Shown here one piece after another: positions 2,505-12,636 of a DNA stretch of 37,804 bases (position 1 is the first letter of the stretch; each line of letters opens with the position of its first letter). This stretch comes from a virus. The stretch covers positions 1 through 37,804 of IMG/VR virus record IMGVR_UViG_3300032116_016906; one strand, written 5' to 3'. Position numbers and translations under genes: made by a program. The notes under the pieces were generated by a model, which saw only the letters and a program-made list of their open reading frames with translations, was not told where the DNA came from and ran no database searches.

Positions 2505-2534
2505 TAAAAAAAGGGAGAAAATCCTCCCTTTTAT
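2505..2534 (-). terminator. Rho-independent terminator after the lipoprotein gene
   Basis: On the minus strand AAGGGAG and CTCCCTT form a seven-base-pair stem (2524-2530 with 2511-2517) around a six-base loop, followed directly by a run of T. The structure begins about seven bases after the lipoprotein stop codon. A/T runs on both sides make it a potential bidirectional terminator. It closes the receptor/lipoprotein transcription unit. Confidence 0.85.
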
Positions 2535-2536
2535 TT

Positions 2537-3739
2537 TTAATTCCCTTTCTGTGGAAATCTAGTCCATCCATTTGTCCATAATGGTTTAGATAAATTTTCC
2601 ATTTCTATTTTTGTATAAGTCTTTTCCACATTTCCTTCTCCTAAAGCTTTTTCTTTCATTTGAGCTGCTGTAAATATTGTTGATGTAGATTTGAAATTTA
2701 ATAATGGGTCAAATGCTTGAACTTCGTTATTTTGAAATTTAGATACCCCATCTTTATACGCCTGTGCCGTTTCGTTACTTTCAATAGAAAATGCTCCCTT
2801 CTGATAACCCAATATCTTTGAGTTTGTTATTGTGAATTGCGTTGCACGTCTCCATCTTAAACCTAAATTGTGGTTTGCCAATGCGGTTGCATCAAATGGT
2901 CCAATAAGAATCATACCATTTAATTTAGGATGCGTAAAAGGTTGTGCCAATGAACCGACTCCATCGTTATCACATTCTATACCATTTCCAGCATCACCAT
3001 TATCTACAAATTGTGGGTCTCTTTTTGCCACACCATTGGTTAAATTCCCTGTGTATCCAAAATCAAAATCAAAATCATCATCTGCGGTTGCAAATGCATA
3101 TAAGTTTCTTGGCGATACAGTTCCCCCGAAGAATTCAAATGCATCATCATTAGCGTAAATAGTTTGAACATTCTCAATAATTGTTCCACTACCAACACCA
3201 CCCAATGTTAGTGCGTTGATTTCAGAGTTTGGTAATGCAGCAATACCTGCGTACTCTATTCTTACATATTTTAGAATACCGCTATTATCGGAATCATTTG
3301 TTCCACCATAAGGTCTACCAATACCACCCTCAATGGTTGGTTCGGATGAACGATTTGTTTTTGCTCTGCCCAATATCACAATACCACCCCAATCGCCGGG
3401 TGCTTTTTGTCCATCGGGTTTTCCAGATGTAAATACAATCGGGTTGGATGGGTTTCCTTCTGCAATAATTTGTGCGCCTCTTTCAATACATAGTGCACCT
3501 TTTTCTGCGATATCGGATACTATTTTTGTACCAGGTTGTATGATTAACTTTGCACCATCTGTTACATATACATAACCTCTTAATGTCCAAACTTTGTCGG
3601 ATGTCAAAGTTGTTGTGGTATTAATAGTTCCTGTAATAGTTGTTGATGATGGTACGTTAATTGGTTCATCTATACCACCTAAATTTTTAGAGCACCCAAA
3701 TATGCCAATTAAAATAACTAATCCTAATAATTTTTTCAT
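2537..3739 (-). CDS. Surface lipoprotein with right-handed beta-helix-like repeats
   Basis: A 400-residue lipoprotein. The signal (MKKLLGLVILIGIFGC) ends in a lipobox with Cys16 as the lipidated residue. The body is rich in short beta strands with Gly/Asn turns and repeated blocks such as GAKLIIQPGTKI and GSGTIIENVQTIYAND, typical of parallel beta-helix proteins. An unusually acidic block (DDDFDFDFGY) could bind cations. Bacteroidota chromosomes often pair lipoproteins with TonB-dependent receptors as the substrate-capturing lid, and here the start overlaps the receptor stop by ATGA, so the two are translationally coupled. The substrate is unknown. It is a bacterial-looking gene in a phage, followed by its own terminator, which supports acquisition as a unit. 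Confidence 0.8.
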   Translation of the reverse strand: MKKLLGLVILIGIFGCSKNLGGIDEPINVPSSTTITGTINTTTTLTSDKVWTLRGYVYVTDGAKLIIQPGTKIVSDIAEKGALCIERGAQIIAEGNPSNPIVFTSGKPDGQKAPGDWGGIVILGRAKTNRSSEPTIEGGIGRPYGGTNDSDNSGILKYVRIEYAGIAALPNSEINALTLGGVGSGTIIENVQTIYANDDAFEFFGGTVSPRNLYAFATADDDFDFDFGYTGNLTNGVAKRDPQFVDNGDAGNGIECDNDGVGSLAQPFTHPKLNGMILIGPFDATALANHNLGLRWRRATQFTITNSKILGYQKGAFSIESNETAQAYKDGVSKFQNNEVQAFDPLLNFKSTSTIFTAAQMKEKALGEGNVEKTYTKIEMENLSKPLWTNGWTRFPQKGN

Positions 3740-5988
3740 AAATTCAAATTTAATGTTAATGAAATCGTTTGTTCGTTGTTTGTTTTTATTAGATTTCTGT
3801 TTTGTAACTTTTGGTAATAGATTGATGGTTGCGCAAATACATCACCTATCGCCAACTTTATTTCTCCTTTTGGAAGTTTATGTAAAATAGTTATATCCAA
3901 TACATCTCTACTATTTTCAAATATGTTTGGGTAACCCTGAAATCCCACTGCTGATATTCTATCACCAACTCTATTGTAAGTTAAATTGATAGTATTATTC
4001 TTTTTGTGAATGTTTACTCCTGCGTTTAACACATAGTTTGATTGTCCCTGTAATTGTCTTTTCACACCATTTACTTCTACTTCTGAATTCATCACCGAAG
4101 CGTTTGTATAGAAATCAAACCAACCATTTATCTTTTTACGAACTTCCAACTCAACACCATATAGGATAGCTGAATTAGGATTTGTATAAGTTAATAAAAG
4201 ATTAGAAGGAACTGAACCATCTGCTACGATTTGTTCAATTGGTTTGATGAAGTTCTTACCAAATGCGGATATTGAAATATTTTCACCTAATTTTGGATAC
4301 CATTCGTATTTAAGGTCTACATTATATATGTCCGATTTTTCTAACTTTGAGTTACCCAATATCTGTGCGTTTCTTACAAAATCATAATAAGCAAAATTAG
4401 CTACTTCTCTGAATTCAGGTCTTGCCAAAGTTTTACTTACTGAAAATCTATATTTTGTTTTATCTTCATTGAATGAAATATTGATTGAAGGTAACAGGTC
4501 CAAATATTCTCTATCCACATTTACCGTCTGTCCACTAAAATCTGCGGTAACTACATCAAATAAATTATATTCACTCCTTAATCCTGCGTTTACTTTCCAC
4601 TTGCCAAATTGATTATCATACATTGAGTATATATATCCCAATTGAAAATCGGCACTGTATCTATCGGTGTTGTTTGTTATTTCATCCATCATATCAATTG
4701 ATTGGTAACGGAATACTCTCGCATTAAATCCTCTAATCTTTTTTAGATAACCACCACCGACTTTAATCTTACCAAAGTCTTTATTGATATTACCATTAAA
4801 AGAGTTTTCATCCATTACACTCCAAAAACGATAAGTATCTCTCCAAGCGGTTTGATATGATTCATTAATCCCCAATGATTTTGTGATTGGATTGACTCGA
4901 TAATCAGGTTGTTCTCTAAAAATATAATTGTATCCTAAATTAAAATCAAATGTTTTAATTTTACCATCTAATTGAGAATTAATTACTATTGTATTCAAAT
5001 GATTTGATGATGTACTTCTAACATTTTGAACATTATCAAAGTTATCACCATTACGCGTTAGATATGTATCATCTGTTTGATAATTTACCAATGTTTTCCA
5101 ACTATATCGATTCTCACCCAAATAAGTTAAGTTGGCAAGTCCGTTTACGGAAAACCTTTTTGCAAATAAAGTATCTTTGTAATCGTATGCCAATTCAGTT
5201 GATGATTGGTAATCCTTTCTATCAATAAAATTAAGTGTATATGTATTTCTAATCGTAGAACTCAATAAAGCATTCCATTTACTTCTCTTATATCCAAATG
5301 ATAATCCACCATTTAAGTTTGGAATTGATGTAAAATTATTAACATCAGAATTACCAAATTGCTTTGTATATAATCTTTTATCACCATTTCCACTAATTCT
5401 GTATTTGTAGGTTGATGGGAATGTGGAAGGGAATTCGGTAGATTGAACTAACTTGAAACTTTTCGAAGTCGAAACCAAACCCCAACCACTTCCCAATGAG
5501 ATATTAAAAAAGTTATCCGATACATCTTTTGTTGCAATTTGAACCAATCCACCTGCCCAATCGCCAGGTAAGTTTGCTGATGCGGATTTGGCAACAATAA
5601 TATTATCAATTAATGCTGTTGGTATTATATCAAAAGAGAATGATCTTCTATCTGGCTCCGTTGATGGTAGTGGAGTTTTATTTAACCACGCAGAATTGTA
5701 TCTATCTGCCAATCCTCTTACTAATACAAACTTATCGTTTTGTATAGTAACTCCACTCACTCTTTTAAGTGCATCACCTACATTTCTATCAGGTGTTTTT
5801 TTAATAAACTCAACAGATACCCCATCTGAAACTATGGATGAATTACGAATTGTATTTATTACTGCAATTTCAGTTGTTTTTTTACCGGCAGATCTTATTG
5901 TTACCGATGATAATGTTTTATTAAATAAAGTGTCTTGGGAGTGGGTTACAATTGGTAATAGTAACAATAAAAAAAGAAACGCTCTCAT
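3736..5988 (-). CDS. TonB-dependent outer-membrane receptor
   Basis: A 750-residue outer-membrane receptor. Residues 1-18 are a signal peptide, 24-32 a TonB-box-like segment (KTLSSVTIR), and about 55-155 the plug domain with the VRGLADRYNSAWLN and DWAGGLVQIATKD motifs. The rest has alternating polar/hydrophobic strands with many aromatic girdle residues, as expected for a 22-strand barrel, ending NLNL rather than in an aromatic residue. The family imports scarce ligands with TonB energy. The N-terminal carboxypeptidase-regulatory-like domain that precedes many Bacteroidota receptors is absent. The frame is intact throughout, so it is not a decayed remnant. It precedes the lipoprotein with an ATGA overlap. 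Its ATG lies inside a long hairpin, suggesting tight control. Roles could be nutrient capture during infection or masking of the phage's own receptor. Confidence 0.92.
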   Translation of the reverse strand: MRAFLFLLLLLPIVTHSQDTLFNKTLSSVTIRSAGKKTTEIAVINTIRNSSIVSDGVSVEFIKKTPDRNVGDALKRVSGVTIQNDKFVLVRGLADRYNSAWLNKTPLPSTEPDRRSFSFDIIPTALIDNIIVAKSASANLPGDWAGGLVQIATKDVSDNFFNISLGSGWGLVSTSKSFKLVQSTEFPSTFPSTYKYRISGNGDKRLYTKQFGNSDVNNFTSIPNLNGGLSFGYKRSKWNALLSSTIRNTYTLNFIDRKDYQSSTELAYDYKDTLFAKRFSVNGLANLTYLGENRYSWKTLVNYQTDDTYLTRNGDNFDNVQNVRSTSSNHLNTIVINSQLDGKIKTFDFNLGYNYIFREQPDYRVNPITKSLGINESYQTAWRDTYRFWSVMDENSFNGNINKDFGKIKVGGGYLKKIRGFNARVFRYQSIDMMDEITNNTDRYSADFQLGYIYSMYDNQFGKWKVNAGLRSEYNLFDVVTADFSGQTVNVDREYLDLLPSINISFNEDKTKYRFSVSKTLARPEFREVANFAYYDFVRNAQILGNSKLEKSDIYNVDLKYEWYPKLGENISISAFGKNFIKPIEQIVADGSVPSNLLLTYTNPNSAILYGVELEVRKKINGWFDFYTNASVMNSEVEVNGVKRQLQGQSNYVLNAGVNIHKKNNTINLTYNRVGDRISAVGFQGYPNIFENSRDVLDITILHKLPKGEIKLAIGDVFAQPSIYYQKLQNRNLIKTNNEQTISLTLNLNL

Positions 5989-6035
5989 AAAGTTATTTTA
6001 AGTTAGTTCCCAAATAACTATGATAGCGTTTCTTT
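5969..6035 (-). promoter_or_regulatory. Long hairpin plus T-run covering the receptor start codon (attenuator-like)
   Basis: An eleven-base perfect inverted repeat (5973-5983 with 6025-6035) continues inward, after one mismatch, with four pairs (5985-5988 with 6020-6023). After a two-base bulge come eight more pairs (5991-5998 with 6012-6019) closing a 13-base loop. The receptor ATG (5988..5986) is paired in the stem. On the minus strand the hairpin runs into seven T residues (5975..5969) inside the first codons, so it resembles an intrinsic terminator placed over the translation start. It would end transcripts coming from the holin gene and hide the start codon in any read-through RNA. The function is inferred; the pairing is directly visible. 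Confidence 0.75.
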
Positions 6036-6074
6036 AAATTGATTAATTCAATATTAAGAAATTATTAAGAATAA

Positions 6075-6353
6075 TTATCCCAACTCTTCCTCTGGTTCTA
6101 CATTCAACTTTTCTTTTTCAATTTCGGTCTTTCTGTTAGTCCACTTATCTATTGATGCAATACCAAATGATCCTAAAGTGATAACCATGAATCCATCAAA
6201 TATGAATTCGTTAATGAGTAATTCTTTACCCATTGCTCCGGTTACCAAATCTACCACCAATGCAATCACCATGCAAGTGAATGATACGAAACCAACTACT
6301 GATTTTTCGTTGATATCATTGTTGTCTTTAAAAAGGTCTGTCCAAAATCCCAT
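6075..6353 (-). CDS. Putative holin (two-TM membrane protein)
   Basis: A 92-residue protein with a short polar N-terminus (MGFWTDLFKDNND), two predicted membrane helices (about 18-40 and 50-68) joined by a short acidic loop, and a charged tail rich in Glu/Lys (KTEIEKEKLNVEPEEE). This layout matches small phage holins that open the inner membrane for the endolysin. It is the last gene of the lysis-type run, after the spanin-like genes and 27 bases after the stop of the preceding membrane protein. The 86-base gap that follows contains the receptor hairpin. No holin family can be named from sequence alone; another two-helix membrane protein is possible. Confidence 0.6.
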   Translation of the reverse strand: MGFWTDLFKDNNDINEKSVVGFVSFTCMVIALVVDLVTGAMGKELLINEFIFDGFMVITLGSFGIASIDKWTNRKTEIEKEKLNVEPEEELG

Positions 6354-6380: not shown

Positions 6381-6806
6381 CTATAACCAAGCTAACAACA
6401 TACATAATAAAACTAATGCTGTTCCGTTTATTGCGAATAATCTTTGTTCTCTTTTAAAATTTTTATCCCAAAACTTTTCTCTATCCAAATAAATTATCTT
6501 ATTCTGTTCATACATATATCTAAAACTATCAGAAACGGATTGTGTTCTGATATTTTTGAATGCTAAACTATCCGATAAACTTTTAAATTCTTTAACACCC
6601 ATTTTCAAAGTAGAAATGGTATCGGACATTTTTTCCATCAATAATTTATTTTCATCAAATTTTTTATTAATGTCATTACCCTGCTTTAAAGTAATTAGAA
6701 TAACAGAATCGTTACCAATTTTCTTTACTATTGGGTATTGGGCGTAATTCAAATTTGATACCATTATTAGTATTACTAACAGAATCCAATTTTTCATTTT
6801 TTTCAT
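6381..6806 (-). CDS. Membrane-anchored coiled-coil protein, lysis accessory candidate
   Basis: A 141-residue protein with a signal peptide or N-terminal anchor (residues 5-22, ending NYAQ), a helical heptad-rich middle (about 45-110) and a C-terminal membrane helix (126-141, GTALVLLCMLLAWL). The 5' end overlaps the preceding lipoprotein gene by 95 bases in another frame, an arrangement like overlapping spanin genes. With a periplasmic coiled coil between two hydrophobic ends it could be a spanin-type or u-spanin-type protein. Alternatively the lipoprotein and the upstream coiled-coil protein form the spanin pair and this is an extra component. ATG at 6806 is used; Met4 is also possible. Confidence 0.5.
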   Translation of the reverse strand: MKKMKNWILLVILIMVSNLNYAQYPIVKKIGNDSVILITLKQGNDINKKFDENKLLMEKMSDTISTLKMGVKEFKSLSDSLAFKNIRTQSVSDSFRYMYEQNKIIYLDREKFWDKNFKREQRLFAINGTALVLLCMLLAWL

Positions 6807-7056
6807 TTAGTTCTTGTTTTAATTCCTTTACTTCTTCTCTCAAATTAGTTATCGTACTTGCAGCTTTTTGTATAGTTTTTGCGGTTTGTTGGTCTGCTGC
6901 TTTTATAGCAAGTTCACTTTTCGTTTGACTCTCTTTTGATTTTTTCAATAACTCTTGATATTCCGCTTCCTTTTTTGCCTGCTCATCTTGCTGCTGTCCT
7001 ATACCCAATGTGCAAGAGTACATAAAAAATAATAATACGATGTATACTATTCTCAT
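6712..7056 (-). CDS. Coiled-coil lipoprotein, outer-membrane spanin candidate
   Basis: A 114-residue lipoprotein. The signal MRIVYIVLLFFMYSC ends in Cys15, the predicted lipidated residue. It is followed by a long, highly charged alpha-helix with heptads (about 25-92), then a Pro/Asn-containing tail. A short lipoprotein next to an inner-membrane coiled-coil protein is the classic two-component spanin layout, in which both span the periplasm and fuse the membranes at lysis. Its ATG comes two bases after the stop of the gene ending at 7059, and its 3' quarter is shared with the next gene. The Pro-rich character of many o-spanins is missing, so the call rests on topology and position. Confidence 0.55.
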   Translation of the reverse strand: MRIVYIVLLFFMYSCTLGIGQQQDEQAKKEAEYQELLKKSKESQTKSELAIKAADQQTAKTIQKAASTITNLREEVKELKQELNEKNEKLDSVSNTNNGIKFELRPIPNSKENW

Positions 7057-9348: not shown

Positions 9349-10179
9349 TTATGCCAATAAATGATAATATTCTTTAAAATGTTTTATTCTATCGGGTAAC
9401 CCAATAGTTCCACCATTAACACATTTAGTTACGGATGTTACTGCTGCATCAGATGCATCGGTACACCTACCTAAACAATTTTTACTAAAAAACCATGCTG
9501 CTGAAAGTAGTGGATATTTGCTTGCAACCAAATCAGGATTACTAACTATATCTTCACCAATTGCTTTACCGAATGCGGTGTAGTTATCCTTTCCGGTCAA
9601 TTGGATATATCCCCGACCACGGAATTTGTATCCTTCTCCAGATGATTCCGGTCCGTTACCCATGCGATTACCATAAACTAAATTTGCAATTTTTTCAGGC
9701 TTACGTTCATAATCCTTTGCTTTTACATCCGTTGGAAAATACTTTTTGAATATACCCATCAAACCCTTTGCTGAATAGTTTAGATTTTCTTGTGTTACTT
9801 TAAATCCACCACTTTCGTGTCCACATTGTGCCAAAAAGTGTGCCAATTTTAACGGAGTATCTATTTTGAATTTTGCTGCTGTATCTGGAATCTGTGCAAT
9901 CACTACATCAGGAATGTGTCCTTTAAGTTTATCTAACTTTAATCCACCGACAGATGCTATCGGTGTAGGTGATGGCGTTGTTGGTGCTACGGGCTTTCCC
10001 ATAATCATTTCCCAAGTTTTAGGGCCAACTATTCCATCGGGAGTAAGACCATGTTTTAATTGGAATGCCTTAACCGCTTCTTCGGTTTTAGGTCCAAAAT
10101 TAGTAACTGCTGGAGTAATTCCTAATTTCTCCTGCATTAACTTTACATTTTCGTTATTATCACCTCTTTTTAAAAGCAT
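9349..10179 (-). CDS. Endolysin: PG-binding domain plus GH19 muramidase/chitinase domain
   Basis: A 276-residue modular endolysin. Residues 1-62 are a PG_binding_1 three-helix domain (LKRGDNNENVKLMQEKLG, then TPDGIVGPKTW). A Pro/Thr linker (63-76) leads to a GH19 catalytic domain (about 85-276). The general acid is Glu122 in CGHESGGF. KFRGRGYIQLTGKDNY (185-200) and the downstream NGG (255-257) are standard GH19 landmarks. It would cleave peptidoglycan glycan strands at lysis. There is no signal peptide, so it needs the holin for export. It has its own terminator just downstream and a copy of the repeated upstream element (10204-10230), so it can be transcribed as a single gene. Confidence 0.93.
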   Translation of the reverse strand: MLLKRGDNNENVKLMQEKLGITPAVTNFGPKTEEAVKAFQLKHGLTPDGIVGPKTWEMIMGKPVAPTTPSPTPIASVGGLKLDKLKGHIPDVVIAQIPDTAAKFKIDTPLKLAHFLAQCGHESGGFKVTQENLNYSAKGLMGIFKKYFPTDVKAKDYERKPEKIANLVYGNRMGNGPESSGEGYKFRGRGYIQLTGKDNYTAFGKAIGEDIVSNPDLVASKYPLLSAAWFFSKNCLGRCTDASDAAVTSVTKCVNGGTIGLPDRIKHFKEYYHLLA

Positions 10180-12404: not shown

Positions 12405-12636
12405 AAAGTGAAAAACGTTTTACAGGTACTTCCACTTCTTCTTCTCTAATTATTTCGACAGTTCCTTTTCTTGCTTCAATGTAAAAGTTGGTATCGCCAT
12501 TTTGTTGATACCAAGCTTCTAATCCATCTGTTAGGGATGGGTAGATAGTTTTACCCCCATCGGCAAACACCCATCTATCACCCGGTGGTACTCTTTTAAG
12601 AACTAACTCTTTTTCTTGTTTAATCTCTGTGTCCAT
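12391..12636 (-). CDS. Hypothetical protein (81 aa)
   Basis: An 81-residue acidic protein without membrane segments, starting MDTEIKQEKELVLKRV. A central GDRWVFADGGKTIYPSLTDG block with aromatic and Gly residues and a terminal strand-rich part suggest a small beta domain. I do not recognise it. The ATG at 12636 is chosen over a TTG five codons upstream; the frame overlaps the preceding glycosyltransferase-like gene by 17 bases and the following nucleotidyltransferase by 14. Confidence 0.55.
   Translation of the reverse strand: MDTEIKQEKELVLKRVPPGDRWVFADGGKTIYPSLTDGLEAWYQQNGDTNFYIEARKGTVEIIREEEVEVPVKRFSLYGED

Follow-up and report, generated by a model that had tools for sequence, protein, structure and literature searches.

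Closest described systems

In Flavobacterium johnsoniae, pairs of a TonB-dependent receptor and a lipoprotein are induced by depletion of inorganic phosphate (Pi), and one such pair, PUSIV, composed of the TonB-dependent transporter Fjoh_0545 and the lipoprotein FII Fjoh_0546, lies in the phoBR operon (PMC8115612). In Caulobacter, the lipoprotein ElpS (CC0170) is encoded beside the TonB receptor CC0171 and is made under Pi starvation (PMC2996285). Phages carry phosphorus genes as well: the pstS and phoA genes of cyanophages are under host PhoBR control (PMC10976474), and the known phage phosphorus genes comprise pstS, phoA, phoD, pit, ugp and others, with no TonB receptor or porin mentioned (PMC10987575). 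These known genes act in the periplasm, the inner membrane or the cytoplasm. Here we describe a receptor–lipoprotein cassette in the IMG/VR virus fragment IMGVR_UViG_3300032116_016906, all 37,804 bases of which are called the window below, and we propose, at a probability of about 0.77, that it is a phage-encoded, host-PhoB-controlled outer-membrane phosphorus-acquisition pair. If this is true, phage control of phosphorus supply would act at the outer membrane and in Bacteroidota, a phylum that uses such receptors, through a kind of phage phosphorus gene not listed before and under hybrid host and phage control.

The cassette and its two proteins

The two genes of the cassette (Table 1) overlap by 4 nt and form one transcription unit. 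A reading of the window made from its letters alone (the sequence-only reading) had described a complete, intact receptor gene with a partner lipoprotein gene, together forming a moron-like cassette in a phage. Both open reading frames (ORFs) are indeed complete on the minus strand, and the description as a moron-like unit, self-contained and in a phage, is supported. The receptor carries a Plug domain (PF07715, 1.6e-9) and an OMP_b-brl_3 domain (PF14905, 1.5e-23), both over the Pfam cut-off, i.e., the plug and the beta-barrel that together identify a TonB-dependent receptor. It has no N-terminal carboxypeptidase-like domain; this domain is absent in about half of the phage receptors, with four state changes on the receptor tree.

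The lipobox cysteine of the lipoprotein, Cys16, is invariant among 14 phage sequences. The protein has no Pfam match, and its AlphaFold2 model (pLDDT 74, pTM 0.79) is a beta-helix, the best fold matches of which are beta-helix lyases, all weak; a comparison of its profile with PDB sequences gave nothing useful. A SusCD-type sugar transporter was ruled out, since a SusD domain is missing from the lipoprotein and its predicted fold is a beta-helix. Pairwise ratios of nonsynonymous to synonymous substitution (dN/dS) of 0.04–0.12 for the receptor and 0.03–0.21 for the lipoprotein indicate purifying selection.

The cassette resembles PUSIV in the order receptor then lipoprotein, in the Pfam barrel and plug, in the low-Pi setting with phoBR neighbours in the homologue regions, and in a lipoprotein that lacks a Pfam match and has a pectin-lyase-like fold. 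PUSIV, in contrast, is bacterial, whereas the window receptor lacks the carboxypeptidase-like N-terminal domain and has a phage-type start-codon hairpin. As adjacent genes homologous to pairs in Pho loci, the two would be classed as a low-Pi pair of the PUSIV type. With ElpS the cassette shares a surface lipoprotein beside a TonB receptor, and in Indioceanicola a homologue of the phage lipoprotein (34% identity, E 2e-31) occurs in the same receptor–type II secretion system (T2SS) layout, a homology that suggests membership of the ElpS family; the ElpS system itself differs in the order lipoprotein–receptor, in T2SS-dependent release and in being proteobacterial. The likeness to cyanophage pstS and phoA lies in phage-borne genes for phosphorus acquisition under host Pho-box control, which is predicted here; those genes, however, encode a periplasmic binding protein and a phosphatase, whereas an outer-membrane TonB transporter in inferred Bacteroidota hosts is concerned here. 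By analogy, the best reading of the cassette is as a putative outer-membrane counterpart of cyanophage pstS.

Phosphorus loci of bacterial relatives

The nutrient is named as phosphorus because of the genomic context of the bacterial relatives, and this assignment is the one we favour. A scan for conserved stretches among 84,980 bacterial and archaeal species returned close relatives only in Aquirufa antheringensis and in a Cytophagaceae metagenome-assembled genome; a search of the genus Aquirufa added one further genome, giving close copies in 3 of 38, and among 222 genomes of the family an identity above 60% is found only in those three. Downstream of the pair in Aquirufa lie genes for an alkaline-phosphatase-superfamily phosphodiesterase, PiT, a GlpT-like transporter and PhoA, with porin O/P also in the locus (names assigned by sequence recognition, that of PiT also by Pfam).

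More distant homologues are common across Bacteroidota. Of the 40 homologue regions fetched, 38 have receptor and lipoprotein genes side by side, as does L151; regions L259 and L303 show one gene only. Phosphorus genes (pst, PiT, porin O/P, phoBR) are present in 17 of 41 homologue regions versus 0 of 20 random regions of the same genomes; the seeds of this test were drawn in part from the first batch, and a second, seed-independent batch gave 7 of 20. In an unbiased Pfam tally, Pst permease, Porin_O_P, PstS and PHO4 rank with the most frequent families around the pairs, and all four are missing from the top 25 of the control. The phoBR genes are neighbours of the pair in L304, L315 and L255, the order on an Alteromonas macleodii plasmid is phoB-phoR-PstS-homologue-receptor, and that on an Indioceanicola plasmid is homologue-receptor-T2SS (gspD/gspE). 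The predicted link to phosphorus is a strong one, but its basis is homology, synteny and the form of the promoter.

A Pho-box-like ladder with a phased promoter-like element

A Pho box consists of two or more 11-nt direct repeats (PMC4415409). Upstream of the window receptor stands an 11-bp-periodic TTAAYA ladder with this form, just beyond positions 2505–6035, the range first given for the cassette, and it belongs to the cassette unit. The exact pattern YTTAAYAN4YTTAAYA has a single match in the window, at 6052–6069 on the minus strand, with 0.11 expected by chance. Upstream of 56 phage receptors, 26 TAAYA pairs are spaced by 11 bases versus 0.8 expected, with one pair each at spacings 10 and 12, and the exact ladder pair is present in 20 of these 56 regions versus 0.7% of 601 other phage ORF upstreams; the ladder-bearing phages are related, so the counts do not represent independent events. 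A two-unit ladder score separates the phage receptor upstreams from controls (p 4e-22). Among bacterial upstreams, a score of at least 11.5 is reached by 55% for the receptor, 60% for PiT, 57% for porin O/P and 30% for PstS, compared with 3.7% for the control. The stricter pattern TTAACAN4YTTAACA occurs exactly twice in each of two Aquirufa genomes (2.5 Mb), always upstream of a PiT gene.

A second element, TA[AG]TTATTG, is found in 46% of phage receptor leaders versus 0.3% of other phage ORF upstreams, and TA[AG]TTATT lies 38, 49 or 60 bases from the ladder in 18 of 25 phage cases. The bacterial counterpart TAnnTTTG, when present 15–70 bases from the ladder, lies at 27, 38, 49 or 60 in all nine cases (5 mod 11); some additional copies are found at 71 (in phase) and at 80 (out of phase). 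The ladder-to-element phase is thus identical in phage and bacteria, 5 mod 11, and this common helical phase argues that the promoters are of one kind. T4 late-promoter and plain TAnnTTTG motifs were not enriched upstream of the phage receptors. The ladder of the window is a candidate Pho box, presumably bound by host PhoB.

Promoters of phosphate genes in Bacteroidota (L151, L250–L317) show an 11-bp TTAAC ladder in fixed phase to TAnnTTTG, which offers a usable and directly testable Pho-box and promoter rule for this phylum.

The start-codon hairpin

In T4 genes e, soc, 49 and I-TevI, the start codon is concealed in long transcripts but not in those that begin inside the hairpin arm (PMC3014915, PMC2988022). 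The sequence-only reading had set the cassette between a hairpin with a T-run and a strong terminator. The former was confirmed as the terminator that closes the cassette; the supposed strong terminator near 6 kb is instead a hairpin at the start codon of the receptor, with a minimum free energy of −24.4 and a z of −5.8. Folding of this strength at the receptor start (z < −4.5) is seen in 27% of phages; among other phage genes the figure is 2%, and at bacterial receptor starts it is 3%. Eighteen phages preserve an 11-bp stem containing the AUG, in which 28 two-sided changes are counted versus 7.3 on shuffling (0 of 500 shuffles reach 28); since these phages were picked for having the structure, the test shows covariation where the hairpin exists, not its frequency. 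When the stem was slid, at most 10 two-sided changes were obtained. An Rfam scan gave no match.

These data suggest that the receptor AUG is sequestered in a conserved stem, as in hairpins of the T4 type. The window structure shares with those of gene e, soc and I-TevI an AUG region within the stem and a promoter or promoter-like element in the 5′ arm, with the differences that its promoter resembles those of the host PhoB type, not phage late promoters, and that the structure is deduced from folding and covariation. By analogy, it would act as in the T4 genes, hiding the start in long transcripts only. A serious, if less probable, alternative for this one step, compatible with a role in phosphorus uptake, is an ordinary intrinsic terminator, by which the cassette would be insulated from the lysis genes. 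The U-run after the stem fits such a terminator; however, the stem covers the AUG and the first codons and covaries through them, and a further argument against it is the promoter-like element in the 5′ arm, an arrangement known from T4 gene e and I-TevI. The roles of terminator and translational latch can coexist.

Proposed mechanism and competing functions

In the phosphorus-acquisition reading, when a phosphorus-starved host is infected, phosphorylated host PhoB would bind the ladder and drive transcription from the putative promoter element inside the 5′ arm. At the cell surface, the lipoprotein may then bind or process a phosphorus compound, which the receptor would import with TonB energy, and host PiT, Pst or phosphatases would complete the uptake, supplying phage DNA synthesis. 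Transcripts that read through from upstream would fold the hairpin and have their AUG hidden (or be terminated), whereas transcripts begun inside the 5′ arm would lack the hairpin and be translated, so that expression would depend on the PhoB promoter. The virus would thus probably use a copied bacterial low-phosphate switch to activate phosphorus import of its own when the host is starved. For the wider proposal that T4-like phages of Bacteroidota widely carry a TonB phosphorus importer, with a host-PhoB promoter and a phage-type hairpin against read-through, we put the chances slightly above even.

Several points weigh against the phosphorus-acquisition reading. The AlphaFold2 model of the receptor is poor (pLDDT 45), and therefore no ligand-site argument is made. 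Functional data for the receptor family consist of the low-Pi induction of relatives and include no passage of a phosphorus compound, and the likeness to Fjoh_0546 and ElpS is one of layout and description rather than of direct sequence comparison. Only about a quarter to a third of the phages have a strong hairpin, and the strict ladder is rare and at background over whole phage contigs, its specificity being local to the receptor gene. Finally, homologues of PiT, Pst, porin O/P, PhoA and PhoBR were not found flanking the cassette in phages.

Two other functions were weighed. Outer-membrane receptors commonly serve as phage receptors, and the receptor or the lipoprotein might mask or replace the host receptor of the same phages, i.e., remodel the surface and exclude superinfection. 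A lipoprotein allele that differs between two near-identical phages (76% identity versus mostly 90–96% for its neighbours) is compatible with this idea, which we nevertheless consider unlikely, as strong purifying selection on the receptor, the link to bacterial phosphorus genes and a Pho-box-type promoter would all be unexpected for a decoy. That the pair takes up a different nutrient, namely carbohydrate or iron, appears similarly improbable: TonB receptors import many ligands, and a receptor of the megaphages Mar_Mega_1 and LR745206 has been published as SusC, but the window receptor has no SusD partner, its neighbours and promoter architecture point to phosphorus, and the like pairs of F. 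johnsoniae, induced by Pi depletion, are reported to be tightly repressed under nitrogen and iron limitation. Among the roles offered by the sequence-only reading, nutrient uptake is thus favoured, and nothing found favours superinfection exclusion or conversion.

Carriage by phages

Scans of viral contigs detected receptor relatives on 69 contigs and lipoprotein relatives on at least 80, and the cassette family is present on 117 IMG/VR contigs (the locus list after 32 shared contigs were removed by hand), with the order receptor then lipoprotein in every contig showing both. The T4-type major capsid gene gp23 is present on 16 of 40 tested contigs. An independent contig, L015, repeats the gene order of the window across both cassette junctions at 73–96% identity, which speaks against the outcome named as refuting in the sequence-only reading, a bacterial chromosome or a chimaeric assembly with a join near 2.5 or 6 kb. 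The 221-kb contig L046 carries the cassette with gp23 and several further window genes around it. The carriers are true phages, a good part of them T4-like, and their hosts are inferred to be Bacteroidota. That the cassette is host contamination, a chimaera or a neutral passenger is hardly credible: the contig is a fragmentary metagenomic one, but the constant order over 117 contigs, gp23 on 16 of 40, the conserved flanks and a dN/dS far below 1 uphold its phage origin. A cassette of this kind had been called unusual on a phage, which is correct for annotated phage genomes, where relatives, all distant, occur in 5 of 50,697 records, and incorrect for IMG/VR.

Between the window and L015, the lipoprotein is 76% identical while most neighbouring genes are 90–96% identical, and g92 (6075–6353) is also low, at 73%; the divergence of the lipoprotein looks like allele exchange. 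One phage receptor copy (L060:6001–8125) has an interrupted reading frame, from decay or assembly error. In L036, a second long ORF (2525–5863, 1112 aa) with a carboxypeptidase-like, receptor-type N-terminus lies upstream of the cassette and is likewise preceded by a ladder (score 12).

Origin and the megaphage relative

On the receptor tree, the phages cluster with Aquirufa in a supported group separate from the other bacteria. Within it, Aquirufa nests with five phages at a support of 100/100, but a tree with the phages as one clade is not rejected (p-AU 0.134). The only phage TonB receptor found in the literature is that of Mar_Mega_1 and LR745206, published as SusC for carbohydrate uptake. 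LR745206 (L318), a 634-kb phage, carries a distant lipoprotein–receptor pair in reversed order, elsewhere on the tree and with no clear ladder seen upstream, and on these three grounds a shared acquisition event with the other phages was set aside; its distance, placement and order suggest that phages acquired the family more than once. Given the homology with this pair, the published SusC reading deserves a second look, as the megaphage receptor may be a phosphorus system, unless the published receptor is another gene of LR745206.

Neighbouring genes

The coding direction is single throughout the window according to the ORF list. The lysis-type genes named in the sequence-only reading do lie upstream of the cassette, both on weak hits.

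Table 1. Features of the cassette and its surroundings, in window coordinates
Feature	Position	Strand	Evidence or remark
TonB-dependent receptor, 750 aa, complete gene	3736–5988	−	Pfam Plug and OMP_b-brl_3
Outer-membrane lipoprotein, 400 aa, complete gene, predicted right-handed beta-helix	2537–3739	−	Invariant Cys16, AlphaFold2 model
Terminator hairpin closing the cassette, bidirectional	2509–2532	−	10-pair stem and U-run
Start-codon hairpin, leader paired with receptor AUG and first codons, then U-run	5973–6035	−	Folding and covariation
Putative −7/−10 promoter element, inside 5′ arm of start-codon hairpin	6013–6020	−	TAGTTATT
Pho-box-like ladder, 11-bp direct repeats	6041–6069	−	CTTAATAATTT, CTTAATATTGA, ATTAATC
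Spanin-like gene, upstream of cassette	6712–7056		Weak hits
Endolysin-like gene, upstream	9349–10179		Weak NCBIfam hits to peptidoglycan-binding parts of lysis enzymes
Endonuclease_NS protein, directly downstream of cassette terminator	1889–2488	−	PF01223, 4.1e-22
SpeD-like gene (S-adenosylmethionine decarboxylase), downstream side	1469–1879	−	Adjoins phrog_29004

The Endonuclease_NS ORF has the DKGH and N/Q/N motif residues and an N-terminus like a signal peptide. Secreted nucleases are under Pho regulation in Flavobacterium and Synechocystis, and the protein may thus feed the phosphorus pathway of the cassette, as a possible functional partner of the pair. The neighbour of the SpeD-like gene, phrog_29004, is a conserved phage protein of unknown function. 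Much of the fragment elsewhere, at 12620–37804, is occupied by numerous glycosyltransferase-, nucleotide-sugar- and methyltransferase-like genes.

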